NCBI GenBank assembly: GCA_037043015.1
Contig: CM073321.1
Location: forward strand, 19,279,001-19,343,000
DNA from: Bryum argenteum
Lineage: Eukaryota; Streptophyta; Bryopsida; Bryales; Bryaceae
Reading direction: 5' to 3'
Length of the DNA stretch: 64,000 nucleotides
This document shows, piece by piece, positions 719 through 42,515 of the stretch. Made by a program: the position numbers and the translations under genes. Each line of letters starts with the position of its first letter. Positions within the stretch are counted from its first letter, which is position 1. Under the pieces are notes generated by a model. That model worked only from the letters and a program-made list of their open reading frames with translations, was not told where the DNA came from and did not search any database.

Positions 719-1228
719 GTGAGCATTGTTTGCAAATTGAGTGCAAGGCATGATTCCTTAGTGTTTCAGCACTTACTATTAATAGAATGCAAGTTATCCC
801 CGGGCCGGGGATAACTTCTACTGTCTGTGGGGATTATTCTCGGAATCTATGCTCCGATGATTATCCACGCCCCTGGGATAACCATGCATCCGCCCAAAAA
901 AACCATTATCCCCGGGTCGGGGATAACATTATTTTCGTGGGCAGTTGCATAATTATCCCCGGGTCGGGGATAACAGTTTTTTGTGGGCGGTAGAATGGTT
1001 ATCGCCGGGCCGGGAATAACTATGTAACCGCCTACAAAAATACTATTATCCTCTTCTTGTTGATTTCTCGCCGGGCAAGGAGTCATCTTTCATTCGTTAA
1101 GGATAGTCTGTTATCCACGGGCCGGGAATAACTGTGGCGGAACTTTTGCCTTTGATTTCTAGTTTGATGATCTCGTATACTATTGACCGAGCACTAAGTT
1201 ATCTTTTCAATCCTCTTCTTTTTTATAG
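719..1228 (+). other. Predicted 5'-leader intron of locus A
   Basis: The 5' splice site reads CAG then GTGAGC at 719. The 3' site is a pyrimidine-rich stretch ending TTTTATAG at 1228. All the locus A palindromes fall inside these boundaries. The reading frame that follows matches the start of the DUF7869-type proteins at loci B and C. The intron is predicted, not confirmed by transcripts. Confidence 0.5.
791..1132. repeat. Palindrome array of locus A
   Basis: Five clear copies of a 21-bp palindrome have arms near TTATCCCCG and CGGGGATAA around a 3-nt centre (GGC or GGT). They lie near 791, 905, 952, 998 and 1110. Decayed copies lie near 861 and 1045. Spacing is about 45-110 bp and spacers are not conserved. 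The 9-3-9 design matches loci B-E, although the arm sequence does not. Confidence 0.8.
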
Positions 1229-4045
1229 GATATAGACTTTCGTTGTCAACGGTGTCGATTTCCGTCCACCAGTTCTACCTGACGAAGTTGCACAGTGCGA
1301 GGGTTTTAACCGTTCATCATGGGTGTCGAAACGAGTCACTCTTCTAAATGACGTCGCTGTCGACGTTGCAAAAGCTGTCTGTCAATCGATTGACTCAAGC
1401 GTCGTTCCAGAGACTGGTGGTCGTCCTCTTGGATCCAACTTTGTCTGCATGCAGATAGCAAAGTCATTAATAGAAGCAGAGGTTCCTTTCGGTTGGATCT
1501 ACTCTTTGCATGCATGGCCAATCACGCATGTCCTTCTCAACGGAGCAAGCCTCTACGACCACGACCAACGCGCCATCTTCAATGCGGCTTGCAAGGTTTT
1601 TGGTCGGGCACCACGAGTTGGTCTCCGTCAGTACGAGAGCAAACGTCAAAGGTGTCTTCGGGATTCACCACCTAAGAAGGAGTACTTTCTTACACCGGAG
1701 TCCATCAACTTTGTTTCAACAACTTATTGTTGTCCAAAGAACTGTGTGCAGCTCTATCCTCGAGGTAAAATTAAAGATCTGAGGTTCCAGTTCTATGTTC
1801 GCAGTGATGTTTACTTCAAAATACATTGTCTCCTTAGTGTGCATGGTCAAGTCCACAAAGCGGCGGACGGAAATGACATGATTATGTTGGAGGGTATTGA
1901 GGTGTGTTGCGTGGCGTGGTACCTGATTATGGGTGTGTCACGTGCCACATTTTTCCGGTGGAGGTATGCCTATCAAGACGGACAACAAGCAGAGGACCAT
2001 GGAAACTGTGGTTCAAAGAAACCTCGTATCCAGACATTGCAAGCCACAGCATCCCTTCAAGCCATTGTGGAAAATGCTGCCGATCTCATGCCTCATTGAA
2101 CGAAGACTATTGATATAGGCAAGAAGGTAGTCTCCAAATGCTTGCCCTCTTCATTCCGCTGGAGGGACAATTTACCAGAGGTGAATGCCATCAATGTCGT
2201 CCACGGTCTTCCTCCTATATCGAATTCTGCTCTTAGTAGGATCCGGCAAGAATCATTCCAAGAGTACTATTCCAAGCAAAAGGGTGACACATTTGCTCGT
2301 TGTGGTGAATGTGACAAAATCAAACAACTTCGAGCATCCAGTACTCGAGGCAGTCGTGCATGGGCTCTTCATGATGCCAAATTCAAACGTCATAATACTC
2401 CTCAAATGGCGCATAGGTTGCTCTATTACACCAACCGTTCAGAGTCTAAGGCCCGGCCCGAATCGTCTTTGTGCATTATTCATGACAAAATGGATCATTC
2501 CAAGACAGCCTCTCCACAATTCTCACACAAGAGTAAATCAACCAATTCCTTCATGAAATTGCCGGTTTCCATCACAAGCATGATTGCTCATGGACACAAA
2601 GATGTACGTTACGCACATTACGGCCTCGATACATATCCAACGGATTCAAATCATACTATCGCTTCATTTGCTCAACCGCTAAGAGATTTGGAATCTCCTC
2701 CGAAGTGCTCTTCCAGGCAGTTGTTTGGTGGTGGTAGAAGTAGCCCTCTCTCTGAGGCTGTTTTGGATGGGGCGGACATGTGGTTCGATTCGCTTGGTCT
2801 TCTCCCAGAGGCTCCAATCCCGGGAAAGACTCTTCCTCCGGTGCTACACATGCAGCTTGATAATGCTTGCGGGGATAATAAGAATCGGTTTGTTTTTGCA
2901 TTCTTTTCATTGCTCGTGTACAAGAGCGTTTTTAGAGAGATTTACTTGAACTTCCTTATCGTGGGTCACACTCATGAAGATATTGATGCTCTTTTCGGGC
3001 GATGGAGTAGTAAGCTCAAGACCAACAGCTACCCTACTGTTCCCCTTCTCATGAGATCCTTCATAGACACAGAGGATAAGCCGGTAATTCCTCACTTAAT
3101 TGAAGAAGTTCCGGATTTCAAGACGTTCATCAAAGGTTACCTTTGTGATGGCGACGAGGCGTTATCTGGGCATACTAGTGCCCAACAATTTAGGTTTTTT
3201 AGAGATGCTTCCGGCTGGCCTTTGATGCAGTACAAAATTCTGTGTACAGATAGCGAGTGGCTTCCTCAAGATAGTGCAGGGGTTAGGTTGTGGAAAGTTT
3301 TGTTAAATGATCAACCTCAGGTTCTCTTGGAGATCCTAAGTTACTAGTTCCAAACGAAATGAAGAATATAGAAGACATTTGAAAGGGAATTAGTAGGTTT
3401 GTGAGCTTGTGGGAGTCTTTGGCGGATGCTGATCCAACAGGCAACTACCGTAGACATCATGAACAATTCATTTACTATTGGAAAGCAGTTCGTGAGGCTT
3501 TAGATTTACCCATCCCTGCTCCATCAACGTTTAGGGATGGATTTTGGCCTACTTCTAGGTACTCTCCAAGTGAAAAGGATTGATTTGAAGATAACGGAGA
3601 ATTGCGCGAGGAATTTGCTGTTGATCCTCCGTTCGTAGGACAAATACGAGATTGTCCACAAGCATCATTCAGAGTTGGACGGGATGTTTATGAGGGATAC
3701 CTACTTGTGCTACGTCCGGCTGATGGAGATCTCAAGAAATTTTGGATAGCTCGTGCTTTGAGCAACCCAAATGCTAGTGTAGAGCATCCTCAAGAAATCC
3801 ACATTGAGTATTGGAAGCCAATATCTTCTAAACATGTCAATCATGACACTTACGAAGGGTGGGATACAAGAAGAGGTAACTCTTGGTGTAAAGATATGGA
3901 TTATGATCCAACTTGGGTGGCTACAACAACAATCATGGGAGCTTGGAAGCCAAGATCTCGTCTTGAAACCGTTAATTCCAAGATGTGCATACCGGAGCTA
4001 CAAATTTCAATTATAAAGGACTCAATTATCGAGTTTGATGAGTAG
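1229..4045 (+). pseudogene. DUF7869-type protein gene, locus A (broken)
   Basis: Conceptual translation gives a DUF7869-type protein interrupted by stops and a frameshift. The frame is open at 1323-2099, stops with TGA after MPH, resumes at 2142-3347, then shifts frame for 3401-3583 and 3602-4045. Visible motifs are a CCPKNC cysteine cluster (about 1725-1745), a CGEC pair (about 2311), HDKMDHSKTASP (about 2479), LDNACGDNKNR (about 2853-2888) and VGHTHEDIDALFGRW (about 2962-3006). The last two are the family signature and look like acidic active-site blocks of an RNase H-like fold, which is inference. A conserved C-terminal module with WDTRRG and AWKPRSR ends at 4045. The coding start is unclear: an upstream in-frame stretch (VVNGVDFRPP) suggests translation begins before 1323. 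Function is unknown; a transposase role is plausible because of copy number and decay. This is the most complete of the four copies. Confidence 0.75.
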
Positions 4046-4603
4046 TTTTCATGTTATATAGTTATATTAGATTATATTAGTTTCATTGGTACACCCTTTC
4101 TCATTGCAATGTAGCCAACGCAAATTAGAGTAGTATGACACTACTATTAAACATGATTTATCTATTTATAGTAAGATGGTATATCCATTTCAATGTATTT
4201 CCATGGGATTATTTCATTCCATTGGTGTTGTGATAATTTTATTTCTCTATAGATATTATGTCCTTTCATCGAATTACATCTTGTTTAAATATTTCTCTTT
4301 GAAGTAACGATATTAATCATGCAAAATACTTTTCTGGTCCTTGAAGCTTGCAATCTATGACTCAAGTAATGAGATGTGAAGTAGTCTCAATATACTTAAC
4401 GTCTCAAAATAATGAATATTAACGGTCAACAAATATATTAATAGAATTTTTGGTATCCAGAGTTCATCTTACATTCTTTTATTGGGTTCATTCGAGTCTC
4501 ATTTTCAATTTAGTCCCATTTTACTTAACACTAGATTTACTACATTTAACCACTAATTTAAATTGAGATTGCAATTTGTCTCAAAATACTTAATATCCCC
4601 TTT
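4046..4603. other. AT-rich gap after locus A
   Basis: No open frame or RNA gene was recognised. I see no terminal inverted repeat that would mark the 3' end of locus A. Confidence 0.5.
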
Positions 4604-7600
4604 GTAGTAGTTGCGGCCCCCAGCTGCACTAGTTGAAGTTCAGCAGTAGTAGTTGGGGCCCCCAGCTGCACTAGTTGGGCCCCCAGCTGTAGTAGTTGGG
4701 GCCCCCAGCTGTAGTATCTGGGCCCCCAGCTGCACTTGATGGGGCCCCAGTAGTTGGAGCCCCCAACTCCACTAGTTGGGGCCCCAGCTGTAGTGGTTGG
4801 GGCCCCTAGCTGCAATAGTTGGCGCACAGCTGCAGTAGTGGGGGCCCTAGCTGCACTAGTTGGGGCCCCGGCTGTAGTAGTTGGGGCCCCCTGCTGCACT
4901 AGTTGGGGCCCTTGCTGCACTAGTTGGGGCCCTAGGTGTAGTAGTTGGGGCCCCTAACTGCACTAGTTGGGGCCCCAGCTGTAGTAGTTGGGGCCCGAGC
5001 TGTAGTAGCTAGGGCCCCTAGTCGCACTAGTTGGGGCTCGTGTTGTAGTAGTTGGGGTCCCTAGCTGCACTAGTTGAGGTCCCTAGCTGCACTAGTTGGG
5101 GCCCAAGCTCTTGCAGTTGGGGTCCGCAGCTGCACTAGTTGGCGCCCCAGCTGTAATAGTTGGGGCCCCCAGCTGCACTTGATGGGGCCCCAACTGCACT
5201 TGATGGGGCCCCAGCTGTAGTAGTTGGGGCCCCCATCTCCACTAGTTGGGGCTCAGCTGTAATCGTTGGGGCCCCTAGCTGCACTAGTTGGGGCTCCAGC
5301 TCTAGAAGTTGGAGCCCCCAGCTGCAGTGGTTGGGGCCCCAGCTGTAGTAGTTGGGGCCCCAGCTGTAGTAGTTGGGGTCCCTCGCTGCACTAGTTGGGG
5401 CTCGAGGTGTAGTAGTTGGGGCGCCCATCTGCATTAGTTGGGGCCCCAGTTGTAGTAGTTGGGGCCTCTAGCTGCACTAGTTGGGGCCCAGCTGTAGTAG
5501 TTGGGGCCCCGAGCTGCACTAGTTGAGGCCCCAACTATAGTAGTTGGGGCCCTGAGCTGCACTAATTGGGGCCACAGCTGTAGTAGTTGAGGCCCCTAGC
5601 TGCACTAGTTGGGGCGCAGTTGTAGTAGTTGGGGCCCCCAGCTGCACTAGCCTGGGCCCTAGGTGTCGTAGTTGAGGCCCCTAGCTGCACTTGTTGGGGC
5701 CCCAGCTTTAGTAGCGGGGGTCACCAACTGCACTAGTTGGGGCCCCAGTTGTAGTAGTTGGGGCCCCCAGCTGCACTTGATGGGGCCCCAGCGATAGTAG
5801 TTGGGGCGCCCAATTCCACTAGTTGGGGCCCCAGCTGTAGTGGTTGGGGCCCCTAGCTGCACTAGTTGGCGCACAGCTCCAGTAGTATGGGCCCCAGCTG
5901 TACTAGTTGGGGCTCCGGCTGTAGAAGTTGGGGCCCCCTGGTGCACTAGTTGGGGCCCTTGCTGTAGTAGTTGGGGCCCACAGCTACACTAATTGGGGCC
6001 CACAGCTACACTAATTGGGGCCCCAGGTGTAGTAGTTGGGGCCCCTAGCTGCACTAGTTGGGGCCCGAGCTGTAGTAGTTGGGGCCCGAGCTATAGTAGC
6101 TGGGGCCCCTAGCTGCACTAGTTGGGGCTCGTGTTGTAGTGGTTGGGGTCCCTAGCTGCACTAGTTGGGGCCCCAGTTGTAGTAGTTGGGGCCCTGAGCT
6201 GCACTACTTGGGGCCCCAGCTGTAGTAGTTGGGGCCCCCAACTGCACTTGATGGGGCCCCAACTGTAATAGTTGAGGCCCCTAGCTGCAGTAGTTGGCGC
6301 ACAACTGCAGTAGTGGGGGCCCCTGTTGCAGTAGTTGGGGCCCCGGCTGTAGTAGTTGGGGCCCCGTGCTGCACTACTTGGGGCCCTTGCTGTAGTACCC
6401 GGGGCCCACAACTGCACTAGTCCGGGCCCCAGGTTTAGAAGTTGGGGCCCCTTGCTACACTAGTTGGGGCCCCAGGTGTAGTAGTTGGGGCCCGAGGTGT
6501 AGTAGCTAGGGCCCCTAGCTGCACTAGTTGGGGCTCGTGTTGTAGTAGTTGGGTCCCTAGCTGCACTAGTTGGGGCCCAAGCTCTAGTAGTTGGGGTCCC
6601 TAGCTGCACTAGTTGGCGCCCGAGCTGTAATAGTTGGGGCCCGCAACTGCACTAGTTGGGGCCCTAGCTGTAGTAGTTCGCGTCCCCAGCTCGACTAATT
6701 GGGGCCCATGTGTAGTAGATGGGGCCCCCAGCTGCACAAGCTACCCAGCTGTAGTAGTTGGGTCCCCCAACTGCACTAGTTGGGGCTTCAGCTCTAGTAG
6801 TTGGGGTGCCTAGCTGCACTAGTTGGCGCCGCTGCTGTAGTAGTTGGGGCTCCTAGCTGCACTAGTTGGTGCGCAGCTGTAGTAGCTGGGGCCCCTAGCT
6901 GCACTAGTTGGGGCCCAGCTGTAGTAGTTGGGGCCCTGAGCTGCACTAATTGGGGCCACAGCTCTAGTAGTTGGGGCCCCTACCTACACTAGTTGGGGCC
7001 CCAGGTGTCGTAGTTGAGGCCCCTAGCTGCACTTGTTGGGGCCCCAGTTTTAGTAATTGGGGTCCCCAGCTGCACTAGTTAGGGCCCTAGTTGTAGTAGT
7101 TGGGGCCCCGAGCTGCACTACTTGTGCCCCTGCTGTAGTAGTTGGGGCCCCCAGCTGCACTAGTTGGGGCTTCAATTGTAGTAGTTTGGGCCCGTAGCTG
7201 CACTAGTTTGGGCGTTGCTGTAGTAATTGGGGCCCTGAGCTGCAGTAGTTGGGGCCCTTGCTGTTGTAGTTGGGGTCCCCAACTGGACTAGTTGGGGCCC
7301 CAGCTGTAGTAGTTGGGGCCCCGAGGTGCACTAGTTTGGGCCCCAGCTGTAGTAATTGGGGTCCCCAGCTGCACTATTTGGGACCCCTGCTGTAGTAGTT
7401 GGGGTCAGCAGCTGGACTAGTTGGGGCCCCAGCTCTAGTAGTTGGGGCCCCGAGCTGCACTAGTTGGGGCCACAGCTGTAGTAATTGGGGTCCCCAGCTG
7501 CACTAGTTGGGGCCCTGCTGTAGTAGACTGGGCCCCCAACTGCACTAGTTTGGGGCCCCAACTGTAGTAGTTGGGTCCTCCAGCTGCACTAGTTGGGGCC

Positions 7601-8057
7601 CCTACTGTAGTAGTTGGGGCCCCCAACTGCACTAGTTGGGGCCTTGGTGTAGTAGTTCGGGCCCCTTGCTGCACTAGTTGGGGCCCCAGCTTTAGTAGTT
7701 GGGGTCCGCAGCTGGACTAGTTGGGGCCCGAGCTGTAGTAGTTGGGGTCCCCAGCTAGACTAGTTGGGGCCTCAGCTGTTAGTAGTAGTTGGGGCCCCTA
7801 GTTGTAGTAGTTGGGGCCTCCAGATGCAGTAGTTGGGGCTCTTGCTGTAGTAGTTGGGTCCCCGTGCTGCACTAGTTGGGGCCCTGCTGTAGTAGTTGTG
7901 GCCCCTAGTTGCACTAGTTGGGGCCCCTGCTGTAGTAGTTGGGGCCCCTGCTGTAGTAGTTGGGGCTTCTAGCTGCACTAGTTGGGGCCCCAGCTGTAGT
8001 AGTTGGGGTCCTCAACTGCATTAGTTGGGGTCCGAGTTATAGTAGTTAAAGCCCCTG
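4604..8057. repeat. 3.45-kb palindromic minisatellite
   Basis: This is a tandem array of roughly 21-22-bp units that alternate two forms, TTGGGGCCCCCAGCTGCAC and TTGGGGCCCCAGCTGTAGT, giving a dimer of about 43-44 bp. Each unit contains the palindromes TTGGGGCCCCA and CAGCTG. Units vary by point changes and 1-2-bp indels. Occasional variants break the phase, such as TTGATGGGGCCCC and units with GCGC. The array is GC-rich and sits abruptly between AT-rich flanks. Open frames on both strands here are by-products of the repeat. Confidence 0.95.
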
Positions 8058-8502: not shown

Positions 8503-8519
8503 ATGGAACGAACATCTAG

Positions 8520-8870: not shown

Positions 8871-8871
8871 C

Positions 8872-11816: not shown

Positions 11817-13205
11817 CTACTCCTCTCCACCGTCGAACTGCTCAATACTCTGTTTGATGATGTCGATTTGACGCTCCGATAATGAAATAATCGGACGCCG
11901 AGAGCCAAGTTTTGCACTTGATTTCCATGACGTAAAAATAGCATCTGCATGAAGCCATTTCGGAATGTGAGTGTCATCAACTTTCCATTTGAAAGTCTTC
12001 TTTGTATCCCAACTAGCATAGGTTTTCTGAACGACACTATTTTTGGATGTAGGTTGAAAATATTGGAATGGAATACAGCCTGGATAGTTGTGATCAACAG
12101 CGAAATCAGTTAAAGCCCTAGCAATCCAGAAAGGACAAGCATCCCCATTGGCTGGACGTAGAGCTACAAAATATCCAGCTAAAATATCTCGACCATCCCG
12201 AAACGACTCCCTTGGTCTATCACACAACCGTCCGATAAAGTGCGGATCACGCCCATATTCCTCTCGCAATTCGCCAGTATTTAAGTATTCTCGTGTAGCG
12301 GGTACTCGAGTTAAAGGCCAACAACCGTTCTTCAAAAATGAAGACACTTCTATAGGCTCAACCAACGCAAGGTTCACAGCTCGCCAATAGCAAATAACAA
12401 ATTCATCATGCCGACGAAATTGTGGTTTGTGGTTTCTTCACGCGAACATTGCCATAGTGGCAAGCACGTAGTCTCGCTGCAGCTTCTGCCTTCCTCCTGT
12501 AGAACGTTGAAATCAGAAATCTACTTATATGTTGCCATGCACACGCACAAACGGCGATGCCTTCAGTGGATACCATCATCGTGCCGTCAGGTGCCTGATA
12601 AAAACGATTATGAACATCTATATTGAAATGTGACTTAACTTAAAACCCGACACCTCGTACATCTGCTTTCGGAGAGCCATAATTTTCTCTCGAGAGAAAG
12701 GTTGGCAACAGTTCTTGCTGCAGCAAATCTTGCTTGCAACCAAGTTGACTGAATCTAACGTCAGGAGCTCCTCTTCTCTCTTGGTCCTCAAGAATTGAGA
12801 GTTTTGTTGTCCCAACTCATACGGTCGCACCCCCTTTCTCTTTGGATGATCGCGGGCATAAACAACGACGTTAAATTTATCAACTCGTAAATGATCAAGT
12901 AGTGACCAACCCTCATGGATAGCATGGCTAAGCTTCCAACTCCTACTTGCAAATATGGTATCAGCACATACGAAGTCGAAATTCAAGCACTTCACAATCT
13001 GCACAACTACTTGATCTTCACATATGGGCTCGTCATTACTCTGTAACATTCTTTGAGCGTCCAGAGTCTGACAAATGCCTTCACCTACAACGTCCACTCT
13101 ATCGTTGAGAAGGGTCACAAATTTCGTAACCTATTTGCTTCTTGGCAGTCCGGGGCAATCTTTTAAATGGTCCGGAAGAAGCTCAGAAGGGACATCCAAG
13201 TCCTA
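11817..13205 (-). pseudogene. DUF7869-type gene, locus B-left main exon, internally deleted
   Basis: Read on the minus strand, the N-terminal half (ORF 13118-12618: RVDVVGEGICQTLD, then a CCSKNC cysteine cluster) runs into a degraded stretch matching the locus A block DGNDMIMLEGIEVC up to about HYGN. It then jumps directly to the C-terminal module (ORF 12377-11817: GELREEYGRD, WDTKKTFKW). Compared with locus A, the whole central block carrying LDN-x-x-GDNKNR and HTHEDID is missing. An in-frame TAG stands where loci A and C have Trp, just before the VT-x-LLND stretch; B-right has the same stop, so it predates the duplication. The 3' splice site of intron 2 is at about 13203. The CACTA element at 13209 lies inside that intron. 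Confidence 0.75.
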
Positions 13206-13208
13206 TGA

Positions 13209-21926: not shown

Positions 21927-21968
21927 CTGCAATCCGAAATGTGTATAAACATAAAGGAAATTGTATAG

Positions 21969-22856
21969 CCATTTAGCTCGAGTCAAGCTAAATAGTCATG
22001 AAGCAAACAGTTCATCACGCTAACCTCGAGGCTGTTCTATGTCGATGACTATTGAGCTCGAGTCGAGCTAAATGGTCATCCAGCTACAAATGCTTCGGGG
22101 TTTGTTGATGAACAGTAATCTTGATGACCATTTAGCTCGACGCGAGCTAAATGGTCATCAAGATAACTGCTCACCTCGAAGCAGTTGTATCTAGATGACC
22201 ATTTAGCTCGACTCGGGCTAAATGGTCTTCTTTTTAGAAATGCTTCGGGGGTTGTTGATGAACAGTTTTCTTGAAGTCAGACCATTTATCTCGACTCGAG
22301 CTAAATGGTCATTAAGATAAATGCTCACCTCGAAGCAGTTGTATCTAGATGACCATGTAGCTCGACTCGAGCTAAATGGTCTTCCTTTTAGAAATGCTTC
22401 GGGGGTTGTTGATGAACAGTTTTCTTGAAGACCATTTAGCTCGACGCGAGCTAAATGGTCATCAAGATAACTGCTCACCTCGAAGCAGTTGTATCTAGAT
22501 GACCATTTAGCTCGACTCGAGCTAAATGGTCTTCCTTTTACAAATGCTTTGGGGTTTGTTGATGAACAATTTTCTTGAAGACCATTTAGCTCGACTCGAG
22601 CTAAATGGTCTTCAAGAAAACAGATTCATCACGCTAACCTCAAAGCATTTGTAAAAAAAGAGACCATTTAGCTCGAGTCGAGAAAATGATCCTTCCACAA
22701 TTATCTCTCAAGACAAACTCAAATTATATATTCGTGGATGACCATTTAGCTCGAGTCGAGCTAATTGGTCTTCCTATAAATAACTCAACTAGACGAATTC
22801 GTGAACTCGAATCATTTGTATGTGAATGCCCATTTAGCTCGACTCGAGCTAAATGA
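21969..22856. repeat. Palindrome array of locus B-left
   Basis: About twelve copies have arms near TTTAGCTCG and CGAGCTAAA with a 3-nt centre (AGT, ACT, or ACG/CGT variants). Most extend outward to GACCATTTAG. Two spacer types of about 40 and 48 bp alternate, giving a 150-bp higher-order unit. The array lies in the predicted leader intron (minus strand 23139 to 21927). Confidence 0.9.
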
Positions 22857-23139
22857 GCCTGTGTCCATATTACATGCATTCGTGATAAGAAATTGCCTCG
22901 ATATTCGTGCACAGTGATTTGTGAGATTGATTCTTGGGAACCGTGCACAAGTATAATAATGTCTTCGCCTCGATTTCTGTGCACAAGTAGAACAGTATCT
23001 TTGCCTCGATTTCCGTGCACACAACCTCCGACAAAATCCACTTTGTCATCAGGAATGCACCTCGATGAAGGCAACATATGACCAATCAACAACAAATTCT
23101 TGTTATACATTGAAATTGAGGTTATTGATCGAACTCACC

Positions 23140-28476: not shown

Positions 28477-28567
28477 TCTTAGTAGCTCTGGTGTTGATGC
28501 GCATGCTGCTTTTGAGGATGCCCAAGGCCTTCGTTACATTATTGCAGCTGTCGAGCACGGTGTGAGG
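28477..28567 (+). pseudogene. Leader exon of locus B-right with possible exonuclease-like fragment
   Basis: One frame reads TLSSSGVDAHAAFEDAQG followed by LRYIIAAVEHGV, ending at the donor GAGG-GTGAGT (intron from 28568). The H-x4-D string (DAHAAFED) is the pattern of motif III in DEDDh 3'-5' exonucleases. No other DUF7869 locus here has a comparable leader, so it may be a captured exon. About thirty residues is too little for a firm call. Confidence 0.3.
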
Positions 28568-28847
28568 GTGAGTTCGATCAATAACCTCAATTTCAATGTA
28601 TAACAAGAATTTGTTGTTGATTGGTCATATGTTGCCTTCATCGAGGTGCATTCCTGATGACAAAGTGGATTTTGTCGGAGGTTGTGTGCACGGAAATCGA
28701 GGCAAAGATACTGTTCTACTTGTGCACAGAAATCGAGGCGAAGACATTATTATACTTGTGCACGGTTCCCAAGAATCAATCTCACAAATCACTGTGCACG
28801 AATATCGAGGCAATTTCTTATCACGAATGCATGTAATATGGACAGGC

Positions 28848-30183
28848 TCATTTAGCTCGAGTCGAGCTAAATGGGCATTCACATACAAATGATTCGAGTT
28901 CACGAATTCGTCTAGTTGAGTTATTTATAGGAAGACCAATTAGCTCGACTCGAGCTAAATGGTCATCCACGAATATATAATTTGAGTTTGTCTTGAGAGA
29001 TAATTGTGGAAGGATCATTTCTCTCGACTCGAGCTAAATGGTCTTCTTTTTTACAAATGCTTTGAGGTTAGCGTGACGAACTGTTTTCTTGAAGACCATT
29101 TAGCTCGAGTCGAGCTAAATGGTCTTCAAGAAAATTGTTCATCAACAAACCCCAAAGCATTTGTAAAAGGAAGACCATTTAGCTCGAGTCGAGCTAAATG
29201 GTCATCTAGATACAACTGCTTCGAGGTGAGCAGTTATCTTGATGACCATTTAGCTCGCGTCGAGCTAAATGGTCTTCAAGAAAACTGTTCATCAACAACC
29301 CCCGAAGCATTTCTAAAAGGAAGACCATTTAGCTCGAGTCGAGCTACATGGTCATCTAGATACAACTGCTTCGAGGTGAGCATTTATCTTAATGACCATT
29401 TAGCTCGGGTCGAGCTAAATGGTCTTCAAGAAAACTGTTCATCAACAACCCCCGAAGCATTTCTAAAAAGAAGACCATTTAGCCCGAGTCGAGCTAAATG
29501 GTCATCTAGATACAATCGCTTGAGGTGAGCGATTATCTTAATGACCATTTAGCTCGGGTCGAGCTAAATGGTCTTCAAGAAAACTGTTCATCAACAACCC
29601 CCGAAGCATTTCTAAAAAGAAGACCATTTAGCCCGAGTCGAGCTAAATGGTCATCTAGATACAACTGCTTCGAGGTGAGCAGTTATCTTAATGACCATTT
29701 AGCTCGGGTCGAGCTAAATGGTCTTCAAGAAAACTGTTCATCAACAACCCCCGAAGCATTTCTAAAAAGAAGACCATTTAGCCCGAGTCGAGCTAAATGG
29801 TCATCTAGATACAACTGCTTCGAGGTGAGCAGTTATCTTAATGACCATTTAGCTCGGGTCGAGCTAAATGGTCTTCAAGAAAAGTGTTCATTAAGAACCC
29901 TTGAAGCATTTCTAAAAGGAAGACCATTTAGCTCGAGTCGAGCTTATTGGTCATCCAAATACAATTGCTTCGAGGTGAGCAGTTATCTTGATGTCCATTT
30001 AGCTCGACTCGAGCTAAATGGTCATCAAGATAACTGTTCATCAACAAACCCCGAAGCAGTTGTAGCTAGATGACCATTTAGCTCGACTCGAGCTCAATAG
30101 TCATCGACATAGAACTGCCTCGAGGTTAGCGTGATGAAGTGTTTGCTTCATGACTATTTAGCTCGACTCGAGCTAAATGGCTA
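28848..30183. repeat. Palindrome array of locus B-right
   Basis: About eighteen palindromes have arms near TTTAGCTCG and CGAGCTAAA, with centres AGT, ACT, GGT or CGT. They are separated alternately by a spacer of about 48 bp (containing ACTGTTCATCAACAA) and one of about 40 bp (containing CTGCTTCGAGGTGAGCAG, itself an imperfect palindrome). The 150-bp dimer repeats most regularly at 29390-29850. Because 150 is divisible by three, long frames stay open through it (29004-29528, 29525-30073). The array fills the predicted leader intron 28568-30222. Confidence 0.92.
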
Positions 30184-30284
30184 TACAATTTCCTTAATGT
30201 TCATACGCATTTCCGTTTGCAGGTATATCAATTTACAAGTGATTACTCATAATTTTTTGTTTATTGCCGGCATTCACGTAATCA

Positions 30285-30916
30285 TGGAATTTAGTGAATC
30301 CGATGGCGACGGAGATTTTCAGCGTCTTTTTTCTGAGGTATTGGATTTACTAATTTTACTTAATATATTTTTGTCTTGAGTTTATCTATTCGTACTAATA
30401 CGTCTTTGTTTGTGGTCTCATAGGACTTGGATGTCCCTTCCGAGCTTCTTCCGGACCATTTAAAAGATTGCCCCGGACTGCCAAGAAGCAAATAGGTTAC
30501 GAAATTTGTGACCCTTCTCAACGATAGAGTGGACGTTGTAGGTGAAGGCATTTGTCAGACTCTGGACGCTCAAAGAATGTTACAGAGTAATGACGAGCCC
30601 ATATGTGAAGATCAAGTAGTTGTGCAGATTGTGAAGTGCTTGAATTTCGACTTCGTATGTGCTGATACCATATTTGCAAGTAGGAGTTGGAAGCTTAGCC
30701 ATGCTATCCATGAGGGTTGGTCACTACTTGATCATTTACGAGTTGATCAATTTAACGTCGTTGTTTATGCCCGGGATCATCCAAAGAGAAAGGGGGTGCG
30801 ACCGTATGAGTTGGGACAACGAAACTCTCAATTCTTGAGGACCAAGAGAGAAGAGGAGCTCCTGACGTTAGATTCAGTCAACTTGGTTGCAAGCAAGGTT
30901 TGCTGCAGCAAGAACG
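30285..30916 (+). pseudogene. DUF7869-type gene, locus B-right N-terminal exons
   Basis: Exon 1 encodes MEFSESDGDGDFQRLFSE and ends at the donor GAG-GTATTGG. An 86-bp intron (30338-30423, ending CTCATAG) separates it from exon 2, which reads DLDVPSELLPDHLKDC. An in-frame TAG follows where loci A and C have Trp (RSSW, RAQW), then VTKFVTLLNDRVDVVGEGIC. Identity to B-left is near complete up to CCSKN, where homology stops abruptly at about 30916 and unrelated sequence begins. The central DUF7869 block and C-terminal module are absent. The protein is therefore truncated, and two independent changes (early stop and replaced 3' part) make it nonfunctional as a DUF7869 protein. Confidence 0.75.
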
Positions 30917-33357: not shown

Positions 33358-34590
33358 GTTAGCTAACATTCCACGACACTTCCTTTTGCGGTTGTATAGA
33401 ATGTATAATCCGCCTCTTGTTGTCGAGGTGATCGTCTTTGTTTTTGTTTATTGTTCGTCGTCTTTATTTGAGATTATTGTTCTTCGATTATTCTGTAGTA
33501 TATCGATTGAGTTGATTGATGTTGTATCTGTGTTAACCTTTGTTAACAAACTTGTGCTTACAACGTACATTTCGCCCTTTACATCGAATAATTTGAAAAT
33601 GCCTTGGGATCTGTGCCATCATCTGATCGATGATAACCTTGAGGGTCGCCTCGGGGGGCGTGCAGTCTTCGAATTTTTTTTGTCAGGTTATCGTTGGGTC
33701 GACGATAACCATTATGATTACTAGTAGGTTCATTTCATATTGAAATGTTTAGCATGCCAGGTTATCGTCGTGTGGACGATAACTTTTATGGTAACCTTTT
33801 ATGTTAACCTCTCATGTATGCCAGGTTATCGTCGTGTCGACGATAAACTTTTATGATAACCTCTTATGTTAACCTCTTTAAATGTCAAGTTATTGTCGTG
33901 TCGACGATAACTCTTATGTCGTTTGGTACCATGTCATGTTATTGTCGTGTCGACGATAATATGTATGTTAACCAATACGAGAATGTAAATTGAAAATATT
34001 GCTTCTATGGCATGCTATCGTCGAGTCAACGATATCTTCCAAGCTACCCACGAGGTAGTATATTAAGTAGTAAATTATTTTTACCATTGGTTGTTATTGT
34101 CGAGTGGACGATACCCCTTCTATCCACGGTCGGGGAGTATTTTATCTTAGAATTATGTGGTCAACCATTAAGTTATCGTCGGGTCGACGATAACTTTGAT
34201 TGATAGGGCTATCGGCTATCAAGATAGACTCTATGTTGTTGTACGAACAACTCAATGTAGTATAATAGTTAGGTTTGATAGCCTCTGTGTGTAGGGCTAT
34301 AGGAAAACTACCCATTGTTGGTCACTTGTTGTGGATATCGTCAGGTCGATGATTTGTGAGGTTTCTATCTTCACTTTACAGTTGGGAGACGGTTACTGTT
34401 AGGATAGTATTGTCGAGTCGACAATTTGTGTCCCTTAAAGTGCTCTTCTTCTCGTCTTTATCATATTCCCGATACTTCAATGTCATTTTCGCCGGTGGTC
34501 AGAATATTAAGCGTTCCACATGAAGTTTTGTTATTCTCTCAGTCGTCCAAATGAACTTCATTTTGGTATTTATTGTTGATTTTCCTGCAG
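33358..34590 (+). other. Predicted 5'-leader intron of locus C
   Basis: The donor is CTGCAG then GTTAGC at 33358. The acceptor is TTGATTTTCCTGCAG ending 34590, immediately followed by G and the ATG at 34592. The palindrome array lies wholly inside. Confidence 0.55.
33686..34428. repeat. Palindrome array of locus C
   Basis: About ten copies have arms TTATCGTCG and CGACGATAA around centres TGT, GGT or AGT. They lie near 33688, 33761, 33825, 33889, 33939, 34014, 34096, 34172, 34334 and 34410; the last ones are more decayed. Spacing is about 50-160 bp and spacers are unrelated to each other except short GTTAACCTCT runs. Confidence 0.85.
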
Positions 34591-34591
34591 G

Positions 34592-36851
34592 ATGGATATG
34601 CATCGTCCAGAAGAATTTGCAAGGTCATTGCCTTCTTTGGCTCCTGGTGTCGCTGTTTGCGACGGCATATCTCGGGCTCAATGGATGTTAAAAGTTGTGA
34701 CCCTTCGCAACAATGAAGATCTTGACGTGGCCAAAGCATTGTGCGAGAACCTGGATCTGGATGTGGATGACGGGATAGAAGGCTTAATTCTTGGTGAAAA
34801 TCAGGTTATGGTGCAAATCGCGGAGTCCCTATCTGAGGAGCATTTCCCATCCGGACAGATGTGGTCCTTCCACGCATGGGACACAAAACATGTTTTGCTT
34901 GATGGCGTGAGTCTCTACGACCATGAGCAGACTTACAAGTACAAGGAGGCTATGAAAGCAGTAAATCGAAAAGGTCGGAAAGGTGTTCGTTCATATAACT
35001 CTATGCGTCAAAGAGTAGAGAATGTTGCTCCACCCAAGAAAGATGCTTTGCTAGCGACAACATCTATCCTTGCAGTCTCCACACAATCGTGTTGTGAGGG
35101 ATATTGCTTACAACCATTTCCCCGTGGACATATTCATGATATCCGCTCTCAACTACATGTGAATGATGGGGTCTCTGCTCGTAAGAAGTGTCTCTTTGAG
35201 GTCCATAGACAGATCCACAAGGACCTGGCAGGCTTGGAGTGGATTACCTTGAAAGGTAGAGAAGTGTGCCCTACTGCTTGGTGGATCATTCATGGTATTT
35301 TTAGAGCTACATTCTACAGGTACAGGGAAATGTCCAAAAGTGGGAAACAAGCTGAGGGTCACGGGAATGTGGGGTTGAAAAAACCCCGAAAACATACGGT
35401 CCAAGCAGCTGCGACGCTTCGTATGCTCATAGTTTCTGATGCCGACAAAATGCCTCACAAAACAAGGACGCTCGCGAAGGGTTTAAAAGTCCCTGCCATG
35501 GTGTTGCCATCTGCGTTCTATTGGAGTGACATGTTAGCTCACATCAATGAGATGAATGCAAGATTCGAGCTGTCGCCAATTTCCTCAAGTGGCCTGAGTA
35601 ACATTCGGCGTTCTTCATTTCCAGAGTTTGCCCCAAAGGCCCGTGGTGATACTTTTTCTCGATGTGGCCTGTGTTATAGATACAAGCAACTTCAAAGCGC
35701 TTGCACACCTCTATCGTATGCACAGCAAAAGTGGTCAAATAAATTGGAAAGCTACCTCATCTCTCAACGAGCACATAGAGAACTATACTATTTCAATTGC
35801 ACCCTTTCGGATGATTCTCCTCACAAGCTGCTGACCATCATTCATGATAAAATGGATCACTCCAAGACCGCGTCCCCACACTTTTCTCACAATACCAAGG
35901 CAACAGATTTTTACACAAAAATGCCTATTGTAGTCACGGGAATGATTGCACATGGTCATGGAGATGTTAAATACGCGCACTATGGTCTTGACATCTTCCC
36001 CGCAAATTCTAACTCAACTATTGGATCTCTTACAAAACTCCTACGTGATCTCGAAGGACAACCTAGGAATTCATCTCGTAAGCTCTTTTCAAATGAGAAT
36101 ACTCGATCAACATTATCCAATGCAGTTCTGCAACGTTCAGATACATGCGTTGACTCCTTTTTTCCTCAACCTGATGCTCCTGTCCCTGCTCAAGCTTTGC
36201 CCCCTATACTAATCTTGCAGCTAGATAATGCTTCAGGGGACAATAAGAATAGATGGCTTTTGGCCTTTTGTTCACTCCTTATATAGAAAGGGATTTTTCG
36301 TGACGTTTACATAAACTTCCTCATAGTTGGACACACGCACGAAGATATAGATGCCATGTTTGGCCGATGGAGCTCGAAGTTGAATACAAATGACTATCTA
36401 ACAATCCCACGACTTATGAAATCCTTTATGGATTGTGAAACACAACCTGTCATTCCCCATTTAATTGAGGAGGTTCCCGATTTCAAGGAATTTTGCGATG
36501 GTTATCTGGGCACACACGGTGACTTTCTAAAGGGTCATTCTAAGGCAAAGCAGTTTAAGTTCTGTTTATGATCCAAATTCAATATTGGGCTCCTGCAGCT
36601 AGAAAACATATCAATATGGACACGTATGTAGGATGGGACACAAAAAAGGGAATGTGTGGCGAGAAGATTGAACAATGGATCCAACATGGTCTAATACATC
36701 ATATATCATGACAGCTTGGAAGCCAAGAGCGCGCGAATCAACTTCAGATCCCAAGATAGCTATACCAACGCCTCAAATTGACATCATCAAGGCATCAGTA
36801 AATGCTTTTACGACAAACTCTGAAGACGACGCATCTACTCCGGAAGGATGA
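34592..36851 (+). pseudogene. DUF7869-type gene, locus C, near-complete but interrupted
   Basis: An ATG right after the acceptor opens 564 codons to a TAG at 36284. The N-terminal part contains RAQWMLKVVTLRNN and SCCEGYCLQPFPRG (cysteine cluster, about 35089). The middle contains CGLCYRYKQL, IHDKMDHSKTASPHFSH and MIAHGHGDVKYAHYGLD, and the signature LDNASGDNKNR lies at about 36220. After the stop the frame continues with VGHTHEDIDAMFGRW (about 36328) and VIPHLIEEVPDFKEF. At about 36565 a deletion jumps to the last part of the C-terminal module (INMDTYVGWDTKKGN, MTAWKPRAR), which ends at 36851. A single-codon stop (Tyr in A, TAG in C) plus one deletion separate it from an open frame. It is the best template for the N-terminal start in this family. 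Function is unknown. Confidence 0.78.
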
Positions 36852-37268
36852 TATATGCTTTCGATGTTGAAGTTTCACATCGTAGAGTGTCTTAGTGTCT
36901 TATGGGGCATTTCTTTGTTATGATATTGCTTGGTAGGAAATAGATAGAATAGTTCCCTTCATAGTTGTATTCTAGCTAGTAGATTGTGCAAGGAGGACTT
37001 GGTCTTTACTTCATCTATCCAATTTGGAAATAAATAGCATATTATTCTTACTAAAACTTTACCTTTGAGGAGTTATTTTGAGAATCCCAATTTGATGGAA
37101 TGTCTCAAATTGGTTCAATAGATAATCACTTTGTATTATGTATCAATTATCAAAACACTCAAAAGTATCAATTTAATGGAATGTCTCAATTTAATTTGCA
37201 TATTTAGAAGTCTATTTATAGGAGAGATTAAATTGAGACTTCAATGTGTCTCAATTTAATGAATAAGG
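36852..37268. other. Noncoding gap after locus C
   Basis: No gene was seen. The motif AATGTCTCAAWTT recurs about three times (near 37099, 37178 and 37244). Confidence 0.4.
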
Positions 37269-37269
37269 C

Positions 37270-37792
37270 CTTCATGATGCAAATTATCTACACAACGACA
37301 TTACTCCAATCAATGTTCTACTACACTTCGATGATTGGAGACCAGAGACGGCTTTGCGATTGGGGGATTTCAAGTCAAATAGTGGAACAAGCGCCATCCA
37401 AGTATAGATATGCCAAGTAAGAGGAGTTGGACGAACAACAAGGATGGCGAAAATGGGTGGCACTGGAATTATGGTTTTTATATGGTCCACGCAATTCCGA
37501 CAATCCCCTTCATGTTATGGAATCCAAGCACATATATTCTAAAGCAACCGAGGCATTCTCCACCGGTTGGTTAGCACAACAAATTTGGCAAGAAGAGTAT
37601 GATATGAAGTACTTTATGCCACACCGCTCAGAACGCGCCCACAATCACAGGTTATTCCGCTACAAACTGAAATGCCTCCATGACCCAGATGTGTCCAAAA
37701 GATTGACAGTGTTCGATGCTATTGAAGCCTTGGAAAAGCATGCATTTAGTTGGACCATGCCCATGTATTGTTACTATAATTCAGCTGTCTAG
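37270..37792 (+). pseudogene. Protein-kinase C-lobe fragment (captured)
   Basis: One frame near 37276-37370 reads YLHNDITPINVLLHF, matching the kinase catalytic loop (HRD written here as HND, then P-x-N-V-L). A shift to the neighbouring frame gives RLCDWGISSQIVEQAPSKYR, a DFG-like DWG block, interrupted by one TAG. The frame 37427-37792 continues with RKWVALELWFLYGP (APE-like block), YSKATEAFSTGWLAQQIWQE and DPDVSKRLTVFDAIEALEKH, the end of the C-lobe. The N-lobe is missing. A second, inverted copy lies at 54505-54790, and both copies sit next to hAT-like terminal sequence. This suggests capture and movement by a hAT-type element. HND and DWG variants occur in some atypical kinase families. 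Confidence 0.55.
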
Positions 37793-37845
37793 TTTACCAA
37801 TCTCCACACCCGCCCCACACCACCCTCACCCGCCTTCTCATCAGT

Positions 37846-38014: not shown

Positions 38015-38762
38015 CGTAAAAGTGCAGATTGACTTACTGGTAAGGTGAGCTTCAGCAAGGACTCTAACCCATCACACTTTGAGCTCCGTGCAAAATTGTC
38101 TCCTGCCTTGTGAACCCTCGATACGGTTCACTTGGATGGGAAGTCTTTCCTATAGCTTCAAGACATGTTTTTCTGCATTGTGTTAGCCTAATTCACGCTT
38201 CTTATGCTATCTAGTAGAATGTCTGTTTTGAATTGTGTTGGATTTATTGTCATAGTATATTTATGAGGTTTTCCTTATTATCTAATATTTAGCAGCTTGC
38301 GGTGTTCCATGATTATAGTTATGAGAATTTAGGAGTTTGGTTGGCTTTACTTGTTGCTCTACTCTAACTACGTGGCTTAAGTGTGCTATAAGTTTTTATT
38401 CTAAGTGTCCTAGGGGTTGAGGTAAGCAAGGAACTTGGGCTTAGAGAGAGGGGTAAGAAAGTTGGATGGATGAATTTTGACGAACGGATTTTGTCTGGGC
38501 AAAACGGATGTAGAGTTTCCTTATGAATTCCATCTATTGCAATGTCTCCGGAGGGTGTCTGTGAGAGTGTGTGTTTGTTTTTTAGGCTAGATCTAAGTTT
38601 GTGGGTATGGATCCAAGAGTTGGGAAGTTTTTTGTGAAGAAGGGTTGGATCTAGGTTTAGGTTGTGATTGACCTTTGTTTTTAACCTTGTTGTTGAAATT
38701 TCAGGGGAATTGGCCGGAGTCGCGACAAGTTCTGGAGGATAGCAATGGAGAGCCAACTTTGA
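38015..38762. other. Noncoding gap
   Basis: No gene or repeat was recognised. A 130-residue minus-strand frame (38364-38756) has no recognisable domain. Confidence 0.4.
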
Positions 38763-39476
38763 AAGGCGAGATCTAGAGATCTACATTGAATTGGAGGACA
38801 GTCCTTTGGAATCACAAGCTTTGTTAAGTCTTCTTTTAGACGAGATCAAGCTCGCCGCCAACGGATCTAAGACAAGGGAGCAGTAGCCGTTTGCGTGAGG
38901 GAGGTCCGCTGTGGCGGCCGATTTGGTGTACCAACTTTGCAAGGCAAGATCTAGAGATCTACATCGAATTGAAGGACAAGCCTTTGGAATCACAACCTTT
39001 GTCAAGTCCTCTTTTAGACGAGATTAAGCTTGTCTCTAACGGATCCAAGACAAGGGAGCAATAGCCGTTTGCGTGAGGGAGGTCCGCTGTGGCGGCTGAT
39101 TTGGTGTACCAACTTTGCAAGGCAAGATCAGGAGATTTACATCGAATTGAAGGACAAGCCTCTGGAATCACAAGCGTCGTCAAGTCTTCTTTTAGACAAG
39201 ATCAAGCTTGCCCCCCAACAAATCTAAGACAAGGGAACAGTAGCCATTTGCGTGAGGGAGGTCCGCTGTGGTGGCCGATTTGGTGTACCAACTTTGCAAG
39301 GCGAGATCTGGAGATTTACATCAAATTGGAAGACAAACCTTTGGAATCACAAGCGTCTTCAAGTCTTCTTTCAGATGAGGTCAAACTCGCCCCCAACGGA
39401 TCCAAGACGAGGGCGTAGTAGCCGTTGCCGTGGAAGAGGTCTACCGTGGCGGCAGAATATTTGGGAGAAATCCCTT
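38763..39476 (+). repeat. 178-bp tandem repeat, four copies
   Basis: Units start near 38764, 38942, 39120 and 39299. Each contains GGCAAGATCTAGAGATCTAC, TTTGGAATCACAAGC, CTTTTAGACGAGATCAAGC, GGATCCAAGACAAGGGAG and GAGGTCCGCTGTGGCGGC. Copies differ at scattered positions. The last unit is partial and diverged. Short frames on both strands repeat with the unit. Confidence 0.9.
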
Positions 39477-39971
39477 CCTCTTCTTTTTGCTCCAATTTGA
39501 TCCATTTTTCCCGTAGATCACTTGTGATTGAAGTTGATAGAGAATTAGAATTGCTCTTAACTTGAAAATAGCAACTTAATTGCCCCAAAAATTGTGTAGT
39601 TTGTATGTACGGGTTGGATGCATGCAAGCTTTGAGTGTTTGCTTGTAGTTGATGTGTAGTTGCTAGTAGTTGCATTTGCTTGTGTGGTTGCTAGTAGTTG
39701 CATTGGCTTGTATGGTTGCATGTGTGTTGAATGTTGGTGGTTGCTCATCATCTTGGTCCTTGAGGTTGGTTGGACTTGGGTTGTGAATGATGATGGAAAT
39801 CACCTGCATGTTTTGATTCCTTTGGTGGATTTGGAATTCCAATTGCATATTGTATGAATGATTTGGGTGTTTATTGCTTGGAAGGCTACATAAGATTGCA
39901 CACTACTTCACGCCCCAACTTGTGACCTTAAAACTGGGCAACCGGAATTAGGACCCACATGCCCTCTTGGC
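39477..39971. other. Noncoding gap before the MITE
   Basis: A short GTAGTTGC-rich stretch (about 39645-39725) holds two near copies of a unit of about 33 bp containing TTGCTAGTAGTTGCATT. Nothing else was recognised. The last 8 bases are the target duplication of the MITE. Confidence 0.5.
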
Positions 39972-40310
39972 CAAGGTTGTCATATCAGGCGTGTTGACGT
40001 AATCGGGCGGGCAAAACGGGCGTACAAGTTGTCCCGGACGGACGGGCTTCCCACCCACCTTGATTGTAGGGGGTGTGTAATTTTTTGTGGATAACAAACT
40101 TTGCAGTAAAAAGCGTGTGTGGCGTTCCACGCGGCCCGTACGCTGCAGCCAAGTGGCTTAGTTTTCACCTATACCCCTAGCACGTTGTTGTTTTTTTACC
40201 TAAACTGAAAGTCAAGAGCCATTTGACCCTATCGGGCGAGCCTCAACTCAATCGGACGGACAAGGCGGACGGACGGGTGGGCGGCGTGCCCGCCCGGTAT
40301 GACAACCTTG
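39972..40310. mobile_element. hAT-type MITE, 339 bp
   Basis: The element begins CAAGGTTGTCATATCAGGCG and ends in the inverted match CGCCCGGTATGACAACCTTG. It is flanked by CTCTTGGC on both sides (39964-39971 and 40311-40318). An 8-bp target duplication with a CAAGG-type terminus fits the hAT superfamily. It has no coding capacity. Related terminal sequences occur at 37846-38014 and 53800-53965. Confidence 0.9.
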
Positions 40311-40499
40311 CTCTTGGCGTAGTACTCCGCATAGCCGAGGCGGAAAATCATGCTAAGGTTTGAAGCTGACACTGGTGGAAGCTTGCATTAAGCAAGATGT
40401 TGACATATAGGTGGAATCTGATTTTTCCACTTAGAACTTGAAGGAAGTATCTTTGTTACAACCTTCTCTCTTGATTAGAGGCTATTAGACTTGTGAGAC

Positions 40500-41353
40500 A
40501 TGTGGTTAGCATGCGTAGTAAGTCATGCACCCAAGACAACACAAGCTACAAGAGTATAACCCCTTTGCTTTCGTTTTCCAGTATTTCCATGGTGTTGGGC
40601 TTCAATACGAGCAGCTGCGTTTAAAGCATTGCGATAAAAGACGCTAGAACTAACACCCATTATTTGCATCTACGCTAACGAACACACATCTATACCTTCA
40701 AGTGTCACCACATTCCATCCACTAGCGTTTATATGGAACTGCCGATGAATATCCAGTTTGATGTAATTTCTGAATTGCAATGTTGTCTTTTCATATATGC
40801 GAGACCTAAGAACCTTGATCTTCTCTCTAGGGTAGAGTTGGACACAGTTTTGGCTATAGGAGGTATTTGATGCGACCTCATTGATAGACTGAGGAGTCAA
40901 CTCGTTCAGGGCTCTGCGAGGTGCTTGAGTAGGAACATTCCTATCAAAATTGTCATATGAACGAGTGCGTCTACCACGGACCCTACACTGTTCTTTGACC
41001 CATATGTTGTACACATCTCGTTGGGTATTGTGCAAAAGACTAACATGGTTCAAAAAAACTTGTCAAATGGGCCACAACTTGAAGGAGTAAATCGAGTCGT
41101 CAAGATTGTCCACAGACACAAACAAAGTTGAAACTTGCACCACGATAAGAGAATGATCAAGAAGACGCCAAGTATCAGTAAGGGCACTGGATCGCAAATT
41201 CCGAGGTAAACCTTCAGCAATTTTGAGACCAACCCTGTTGTGCAACGACAACGTCCTTTCCGATTACAGTCAAGGCGAAAGAACTTGAAAGTCTAAAATA
41301 TCTGGGTTCATTGGTGGAACAACAGACTGCTCTTCAGCGATGGATACGTTCAT
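40500..41353 (-). pseudogene. DUF7869-type gene, locus D, N-terminal half only
   Basis: On the minus strand an ATG at 41353 follows a splice acceptor (TGTGCAG) and begins MNVSIAEEQSVVPPMNPDIL. Frame breaks follow. A stretch at 41251-41063 matches the second block of loci A-C, and 41053-40670 contains SQNCVQLYPREKIKVLR and WNVVTLEGIDVC. A tail near 40610-40540 (QHHGNTGKRKQRGYTL) matches the HGN-x-G-x-KKPR block of A and C. One cysteine of the CC-x3-C cluster is lost (SYSQNC). The central signature and the C-terminal module are missing, and the hAT MITE lies about 190 bp further on. Confidence 0.7.
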
Positions 41354-41354
41354 A

Positions 41355-42515
41355 CTGCACATGCACAAGAACATAGGATACTGGTTCTAAGTTATGCAAA
41401 CAATCACACCAAAGTCCCATAAGAGATTTATATAATGTCTCCTTATACAGTTTAGCTCGAGTCGAGCTAACTATTGATTTGTAGAATGTCAGCTCATGTA
41501 GTTTAGCTCGTCTTGATTAAAAATGTATGAGAATTAATGTCTAACTCATTTGACAAAGAACACTTCTGTAGTTGAGAAATTTAGCTCGACTTGAGCTAAA
41601 CTTCATGACATGGAATGTCATTCACTTAAGCTCGAGTCGAGTTGAATTGTATGTCATCACAGCCAGCATAGTGAAGCATGCTAAATGATACAACATGTTA
41701 AACAAATTATCTTAAGTCAAGCTAAACTTCAAAGATTGAGATGTCATGAAATTTAGTCTGAATCGAGCTAAAACACGGACTAGTATTGAATGTCCTGCAG
41801 TTTAGCTGGATTTGAGGTGAACTGCTTAGAGGGAAATGAGTTTGACAATTTAGCTCGAATGAGCTAAAACTTGATGTATTAATTTTCTTGCAATTTAGTA
41901 CAAATCAATTACCCGTAAATGTACTACAATATAGCTCGAATTGGGATAAACTGCTAAGCGGAAAATGTCTTGCACTTTAGCTTAAATCGAGCTAAACTGC
42001 GTTGTATTGAATGTCCTGCAATTTAGTTTGACTCGAACTAAATTCCTCAGCTGGAAATGTCCATTTGTTTAGCCCGACTCGAGCGTAGTTTTATGTACTA
42101 ATTGTCCTTCCATTTAGCTCGACCCGAGCTAAACTGCTTCGCGAGAAATGATTTGCCATTTAGCTCGACTCAAGCTAAAATGCTTAGTGGAAAATATCCA
42201 TTCATTTAGCATGACTTGAGCTAAGTTTCATGTAGCGATTGTCCCTCAATTTAGCTCAACTTGAGGCTTGTGTGGAACTGCTTAGCGGGAAATGATTTGC
42301 CATTTAGCTCCACTCGAGCTTAACAGCTTCGTGGGAAATGACATGCAATTTAGCTCGACTCAAGCTAAACTGCTTAGCGGGAATTGACTTGCCGTTTAGC
42401 TCAACCCAAGCTAAAATGCTTAACGAGAAATGCCCTGCAATTTAGCTCGACTTGAGCTAAACTGCTTGATTGTAAAAGTCCTTCAATTTAGCTCAAATTG
42501 AGCTAAATAGCATAC
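41355..42515 (-). other. Predicted 5'-leader intron of locus D
   Basis: On the minus strand the donor is GAAG-GTATGC (42515) and the acceptor is TTCTTGTGCATGTGCAG ending at 41355, one base before the ATG. The intron is 1,161 bp. All locus D palindromes lie inside. Confidence 0.55.
41452..42510. repeat. Palindrome array of locus D
   Basis: About twenty palindromes or half-palindromes have arms TTTAGCTCG and CGAGCTAAA with centres AGT, ACT or decayed forms (for example TTTAGCTCGACCCGAGCTAA near 42116). Many are followed by CTGCTTAGCGGGAAATG. The copies are more diverged than in locus B, suggesting an older or less homogenised array. Confidence 0.85.

Follow-up and report, generated by a model that had tools for sequence, protein, structure and literature searches.

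In a 64,000-nucleotide stretch of the genome of the moss Bryum argenteum (contig CM073321.1, positions 19,279,001 to 19,343,000; hereafter the window), genes coding for proteins with DUF7869, a domain of unknown function, are preceded by arrays of short palindromes lying between splice-like borders. Judging from sequence, these genes are parts of giant transposons with terminal inverted repeats (TIRs), 12 to 22 kb long in the 12 end pairs that we read, and we hold it reasonably probable (about 0.6) that each array groups predicted binding sites of a sequence-specific DNA-binding protein which its own transposon encodes. This transposon would carry two divergent genes, one for the transposase-like DUF7869 protein and one for a protein of ParB/sulfiredoxin (Srx) fold, with sites concentrated in the leader of each, and protein binding at these leader sites would control transcription of the element and/or prevent its silencing by the host. 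The elements have TIRs, 4-bp duplications and, where they were read that far, two genes and two arrays, the motif being identical within but not between families; from this we infer the binding by a protein, the identity of that protein and the effect of binding. The evidence base is the DNA sequence of one genome plus one contig.

Palindrome arrays before DUF7869 genes

The arrays of the window are the following.
719..1228, plus strand: leader-intron array of locus A; A motif, six sites
21927..23139, minus strand: leader-intron array of B-left; 12 sites of the D-type motif; its gene follows after about 8.6 kb of other DNA
28568..30222, plus strand: leader-intron array of B-right; 18 sites of the D-type motif; copy of B-left in inverted orientation (97% over 2.5 kb)
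33358..34590, plus strand: leader-intron array of locus C; C motif, eight sites at up to 3 mismatches
41355..42515, minus strand: leader-intron array of locus D; D motif, 13 sites
53121..53785, no strand assigned: sixth array; D motif, 12 sites

The array unit is a 21-bp palindrome made of two 9-base arms and a 3-base centre, many A sites being rather 10 bases around 1. The family motifs are TTATCCCCG-NNN-CGGGGATAA for A, TTATCGTCG-NNN-CGACGATAA for C, and TTTAGCTCG-NNN-CGAGCTAAA for D, the last being common to the B and D arrays. A preliminary description of the window had reported palindrome arrays at the first five loci, and all of them stand well above shuffled expectation: near-perfect palindromes (arms of 9, at most one mismatch, loop of 1-5), compared with the mean of 20 mononucleotide shuffles, number 3 vs 0.1 at A, 11 vs 0.5 at B-left, 17 vs 0.65 at B-right, 11 vs 0.7 at C and 10 vs 0.9 at D. 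It had overlooked the sixth array (53100-53800; 10 vs 0.15), which, from its position only, is perhaps the second array of the D element, the one belonging to the second gene described below; no homologue of that gene was found in the window. The other 57.5 kb contain 71 further near-perfect palindromes, some within a tandem array at 4.6-8.0 kb. Sites of the family motifs (at most 3 mismatches of 18) occur outside the six arrays only as two single D-type sites in the whole 64 kb, at 11764 and 32240. The earlier statement that the loci differ in arm sequence holds for the A, C and D motifs, but the arms of B and D are the same.

The arrays had also been placed between splice sites directly ahead of the coding start. 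The borders are indeed found (slash, presumed splice point), with CAG/GTGAGC...TATAG/GATATAG at locus A, GAGG/GTGAGT...TGCAG/GTATAT at B, CAG/GTTAGC...TGCAG/GATGG at C, and GAAG/GTATGC...TGCAG/TATG at D. The arrays of C and D lie directly before the coding start, but in the window copy of A the ATG is lost, and at B no ATG directly follows the acceptor, the B-right array being separated by 183 bases from the first recognisable coding sequence (DUF7869 from 30406).

The same arrangement recurs throughout the genome, which was searched over 259 Mb in 25 contigs, copy counts being lower bounds. With the locus C protein at least 81 match rows were obtained, 77 of 1997 candidates having been scored, and contig C1 accounts for 64 of these rows. 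The DUF7869 protein of a separate contig, L082 (see below), gave at least 49 (48 of 2589 scored), 37 of them on C1. Contig C1 holds 17% of the genome bases, and may be a sex chromosome or otherwise little recombining; rows without stops in the locus C search are 19/64 on C1 and 13/17 elsewhere. Far from mostly lacking palindromes, the copies carry them: in the 1.5 kb upstream of 30 C-type loci (window C included; at most 4 mismatches), 28/30 have 4-17 C sites, with 0 in shuffles and none in the matched coding or 1.5-kb downstream parts of the same loci, and 7-16 D sites (at most 3 mismatches) precede all eight D-type genes without stops that were chosen from the 49 rows. In six of these eight genes the spacing is mostly 45-46 bp, and two D downstream pieces hold 0 and 1 weak site. 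Concerning the A family, sites are present in L034, L035 and window A, and the exact A motif occurs 805 and 810 times genome-wide (forward and reverse), its reversed control 0 times.

Splice-like borders are equally recurrent. At C-type loci the donor GT is present in 20/22 rows and AG before GATG in 22/24, several rows being the same copy twice and one further row (L029) ending short of the donor. All eight D genes have AG before the start, and the A acceptor is kept as AG in L035 and in the window copy and is TG in L034.

The motif follows the element family. With at most 3 mismatches the motif table is block-diagonal, tested A segments containing A sites only, C segments C only and D segments D only. 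Moreover, the 4.3-kb contig L082 codes for a 944-aa DUF7869 protein with three D-motif palindromes upstream and ACAG/GATG before the start, plus three weaker palindromes downstream, unlike the pieces of the Bryum genome (G000) examined. Among the proteins compared, it is closest to window D (52.6% identity), followed by E, a further family (41.2%), A (35.1%) and C (29.9-32.9%). The motif therefore accompanies the protein lineage into another organism, and, together with its sharing by the two arrays of one element (see below), this supports the earlier suggestion of a selected role as binding sites for the encoded protein. L082 (1-4327) is a plant-like contig filed under an uncultured Synechococcales (cyanobacterial) genome, whose name also labels P0155, a homologue of the second gene. 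It is the one plant-like contig given by a search of genome contigs; a search of viral contigs gave no relative.

Giant transposons and their two genes

The outer ends of the elements are exact across copies (...GGCCTT in C, ...CCCCTT in A), the flanks beyond being unrelated. A whole-genome search with the 26-base ends (at most 3 mismatches) returned 132 and 128 places for the C and A ends and none for the reversed control, and a number of the places listed pair in inverted orientation. Twelve pairs, drawn from the first places listed, were read at sequence level (seven C and five A), with lengths from 11,993 to 22,198 bp. The TIRs are 26 bp long, start with AAGG..., and differ between two typical ends by 1 (C) or 3 (A) mismatches. 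Identical 4-bp flanks are present at 11/12 pairs (ATAA, AATA, TTAA, ATGT, AGAA, AAAA, CTAG, GTGT, ATAT, AAAC, ACTT) and have the appearance of target duplications left by cut-and-paste movement; in the twelfth, c234, the right end is altered and there is no duplication. An element on C4 was excluded from this count, the automatic match having fallen within the gene, and its hand-read flanks are TAGT and TAGT. The opposite ends of the window A and C copies were not found. Breaks in pairwise similarity of the 5' flanks had initially been taken as element ends, among them TTA/GAACATG in family A, and were rejected once the pattern search had found the 5' ends. Helitron, Crypton and foldback readings were dropped because of the TIRs and 4-bp duplications.

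The first gene codes for the DUF7869 protein, which models as an RNase H-like transposase core. The model places its acidic residues in b1, b4 and the helix that follows b5; D419 is present in 27/28 rows, D547 is invariant, and E/D586 and D589 are found in each of the 26 rows that have letters at these positions. Ginger is a eukaryotic DDE superfamily with short duplications, and the moss elements resemble it in their predicted RNase H-like, integrase-resembling core and short target duplication. However, Pfam scans of 28 DUF7869 proteins gave no convincing match to any other family and no rve match at E<=1, and the moss termini are AAGG; the fold lists are no evidence against families that do not appear in them. 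A PDB sequence search with gene 1 gave no match at E<=1, and the named proteins among the DUF7869 matches come from the mosses Physcomitrium and Ceratodon. For this domain of unknown function we propose both a function and a vehicle, DUF7869 looking like the transposase of a giant plant transposon.

The elements that were read further (c42, c37 and part of one A element) contain a second, divergent gene of predicted ParB/sulfiredoxin fold with its own array. The preliminary description was right in placing arrays between splice-like borders ahead of DUF7869 genes, but it overlooked this gene and its array, as well as the TIR ends and sites in presumed coding regions. In c42, a C element (G000:C1:42035567-42055546), 12 C-motif sites precede gene 1 and 11 precede gene 2, with 0 in the central 5.8 kb between the arrays, in the gene 1 coding sequence or after gene 1. 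In the A element at C1:957871-980068, A-motif arrays lie at 975554-976303 and 968725-969711, so that in elements read this far both arrays of one element use one motif. Sites also occur in short internal introns of gene 2: its intron 1, at the matching coding position, has sites of the A motif in A and one site of the C motif in C. Finally, the acidic repeats of c42 gene 2, which lie in long open frames, contain eight motif-like sites with 2-5 mismatches, spaced by 93, 165, 825, 138, 72, 144 and 72 bases. All spacings are multiples of 3, which agrees with the presumed coding nature of the repeats. The palindrome sequence itself would encode these RRADD-like repeats of the presumed protein, and DNA motif and protein repeat would then evolve together. 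Because sites are also present in presumed coding repeats, an intron location is not the defining feature of the arrays, and we abandoned a restriction of the sites to introns.

By modelling, the gene 2 product matches the ParB N-domain fold, which is also found in sulfiredoxin and a serine kinase. In sequence searches, the best PDB hit of gene 2 has an E of 0.16, and the joined gene-2 query gave no match at E<=0.001. Gene 2 of c42 includes a NIF phosphatase domain, NIF and DUF7869 being the only families above Pfam cut-offs in the frames scanned; a methylase-like stretch, seen by eye only, has no support from Pfam and was rejected.

Proposed binding sites and their possible readers

A trans-acting element protein reading DNA is the best explanation for the arrays, because the sites are set by family, occur at several separated places per element, and do not mix within one genome. 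The transposase, through its N-terminal part, is the more conventional candidate reader, the ParB-fold gene the more provocative one.

A role at the RNA level, with the palindromes forming leader-intron hairpins that steer splicing or yield small RNAs, would fit the position of the arrays between GT and AG in most C-type rows and the sites in short internal introns of gene 2. However, the eight sites in presumed coding repeats would remain in the mRNA. Moreover, among unique sites pooled by family (A 30, B 10, C 138, D 64), mismatched arm pairs are G-T 111 times, A-C 119 times and other 193 times, without wobble bias, and changes in both arms restore pairing in 19 cases and fail in 26, against 397 one-sided changes. 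The hairpin RNA suggested earlier accordingly finds no covariation in its favour, in a weak, low-power test, many copies being decayed and related, and we regard an RNA-level role as distinctly unlikely. The D centres have no strand preference (ACT 55 vs AGT 47), as expected for double-stranded DNA. An apparent rule that an NGT centre points to the gene is true in C, fails in A and D, and was dropped.

The arrays might also be selfish tandem repeats, expanding by slippage or unequal exchange in tolerant introns without any function. Near-identical copies do vary strongly in copy number and spacing, and another noncoding tandem array lies nearby (4603-8047). Yet slippage is local, whereas one element has its family motif in two arrays some 6 kb from each other, within single internal introns and within presumed coding repeats; the motif also differs as a set between families, and that of D is kept between organisms. 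Absence of function therefore appears unlikely.

CACTA elements have subterminal repeats on which the transposase assembles, and the many family-specific sites, the transposase-like fold modelled for DUF7869 and a helix-turn-helix-like stretch seen by eye would be in keeping with sites for transposition. However, the arrays of c42 have an internal position, with about 3.5 kb to one end of the element and 7.8 kb to the other, its outermost 2.2 and 3.3 kb being free of sites, and we consider this role very unlikely.

Several observations also weigh against binding of an element protein as we propose it. In c42 the ends, the gene 1 coding sequence and the central 5.8 kb lack sites, so that the sites do not coincide with the places where cutting by a transposase is expected. 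Duplication homogenises tandem arrays, and identity within one array proves little. Copy c10 retains array 1 although other DNA replaces gene 2. The two C-type loci without sites are L027 and L029, where the protein matches start at residues 70 and 90. Lastly, the leader array of the E family (L036, L061) consists of 30-bp repeats that contain TTTAG...CTAAA and are barely palindromic, five of them at each locus scoring as D-like; not every leader array is thus made of palindromes.

Among known systems, the closest parallel to family-specific binding sites is found in Arabidopsis VANDAL elements, whose VANC proteins, according to passages of two papers (PMC5735166, PMC10398659), bind short motifs, which are tandemly repeated in noncoding parts, introns included, and differ between related families. 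VANDAL are, like the moss elements, plant multi-gene DNA transposons, but their motifs are of 8-9 nt and not palindromic 21-mers, and the moss elements have DUF7869 in place of VANA, a partner gene of ParB/Srx fold, and clear TIRs flanked by 4-bp duplications. The moss arrays may work like VANC targets; kinship of the proteins is not implied, and anti-silencing is suggested by analogy only.

The GERRxR motif is named, in passages of a study of ParB/Noc/KorB clamps with palindromic sites, as a signature from which KorB departs at one place (PMC11790492). Gene 2 lacks it, with GQHS instead (INGQHS at the GERRxR position in 22/22 rows), and its binding to sites is a prediction. A ParB/Srx-fold protein could load at the family-specific palindrome clusters before both genes and spread along the element, which it would mark as self, keep open or regulate in its expression, with motif and protein diverging together and no cross-talk between co-resident families; such a eukaryotic counterpart of a partition or clamp system seems to us rather unlikely. 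The D half-site TTTAGC resembles the KorB operator (TTTAGCGGCTAAA), a likeness that we judged to be chance because the A and C motifs differ.

The preliminary observation holds and generalises, and the wider picture of a giant transposon with two genes and family-private motifs is new. We found no mention of DUF7869 in the literature searched, and among the titles listed none matched giant transposons of mosses, arrays of palindromic or subterminal type, new superfamilies having 4-bp duplications, or ParB in transposons, which is no proof of novelty; passages of a review of giant transposons (PMC6431247) do not mention moss. At least three families in one genome, each with a private 21-bp palindrome present at many sites in several places and differing as a set, represent a natural recognition experiment. 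They make testable the separate regulation of co-resident transposons and the VANDAL-like evolution of private motifs in another plant lineage with a different transposase.

DUF7869 genes and other features of the window

The genes and ends associated with the arrays are the following.
1229..4045, plus strand: DUF7869 gene of locus A, decayed; start codon lost, in-frame stops; PF25273 E=1.9e-42
4577..4602, minus strand: outer (3') TIR of locus A, AAGGGGATATTAAGTATTTTGAGACA
11835..13202, minus strand: remnant of the B-left DUF7869 gene; ~270 N-terminal and ~200 C-terminal aa, without the catalytic middle
30406..30915, plus strand: B-right DUF7869 N-terminal remnant
34592..36848, plus strand: DUF7869 gene of locus C; 564-aa open frame, stop at 36284-36286, the rest decayed
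37247..37272, minus strand: outer (3') TIR of locus C, AAGGCCTTATTCATTAAATTGAGACA
40307..41353, minus strand: 5' part of the DUF7869 gene of locus D, decayed; interrupted at 40307

DUF7869 (PF25273) scores 54.7 bits at locus C and 145.5 bits at locus A, above the curated cut-off of 26. At locus B (11835-30915) a DUF7869 copy without its catalytic middle is present as a head-to-head inverted duplication, with 97% over 2.5 kb and 99% over 0.5 kb. Similarity of the D gene stops at 40307 and continues from 38109, the gap (38110-40306) having the look of an insertion. A 284-bp repeat at 37522-37805 has an inverted second copy at 54517-54800 (85% identity), and the noncoding tandem array at 4603-8047, a GC-rich 43-bp repeat, adjoins the 3' end of element A. 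Scans of the window for tRNA and Rfam families gave no match. Telomere-like CCCTAAA repeats at 32780-32857, some 0.5 kb upstream of the leader intron of locus C, are perhaps promoter telo-boxes. A further DUF7869 gene, of the E family (L061:3606-7710), with a 30-bp leader array, is situated immediately upstream of the window.

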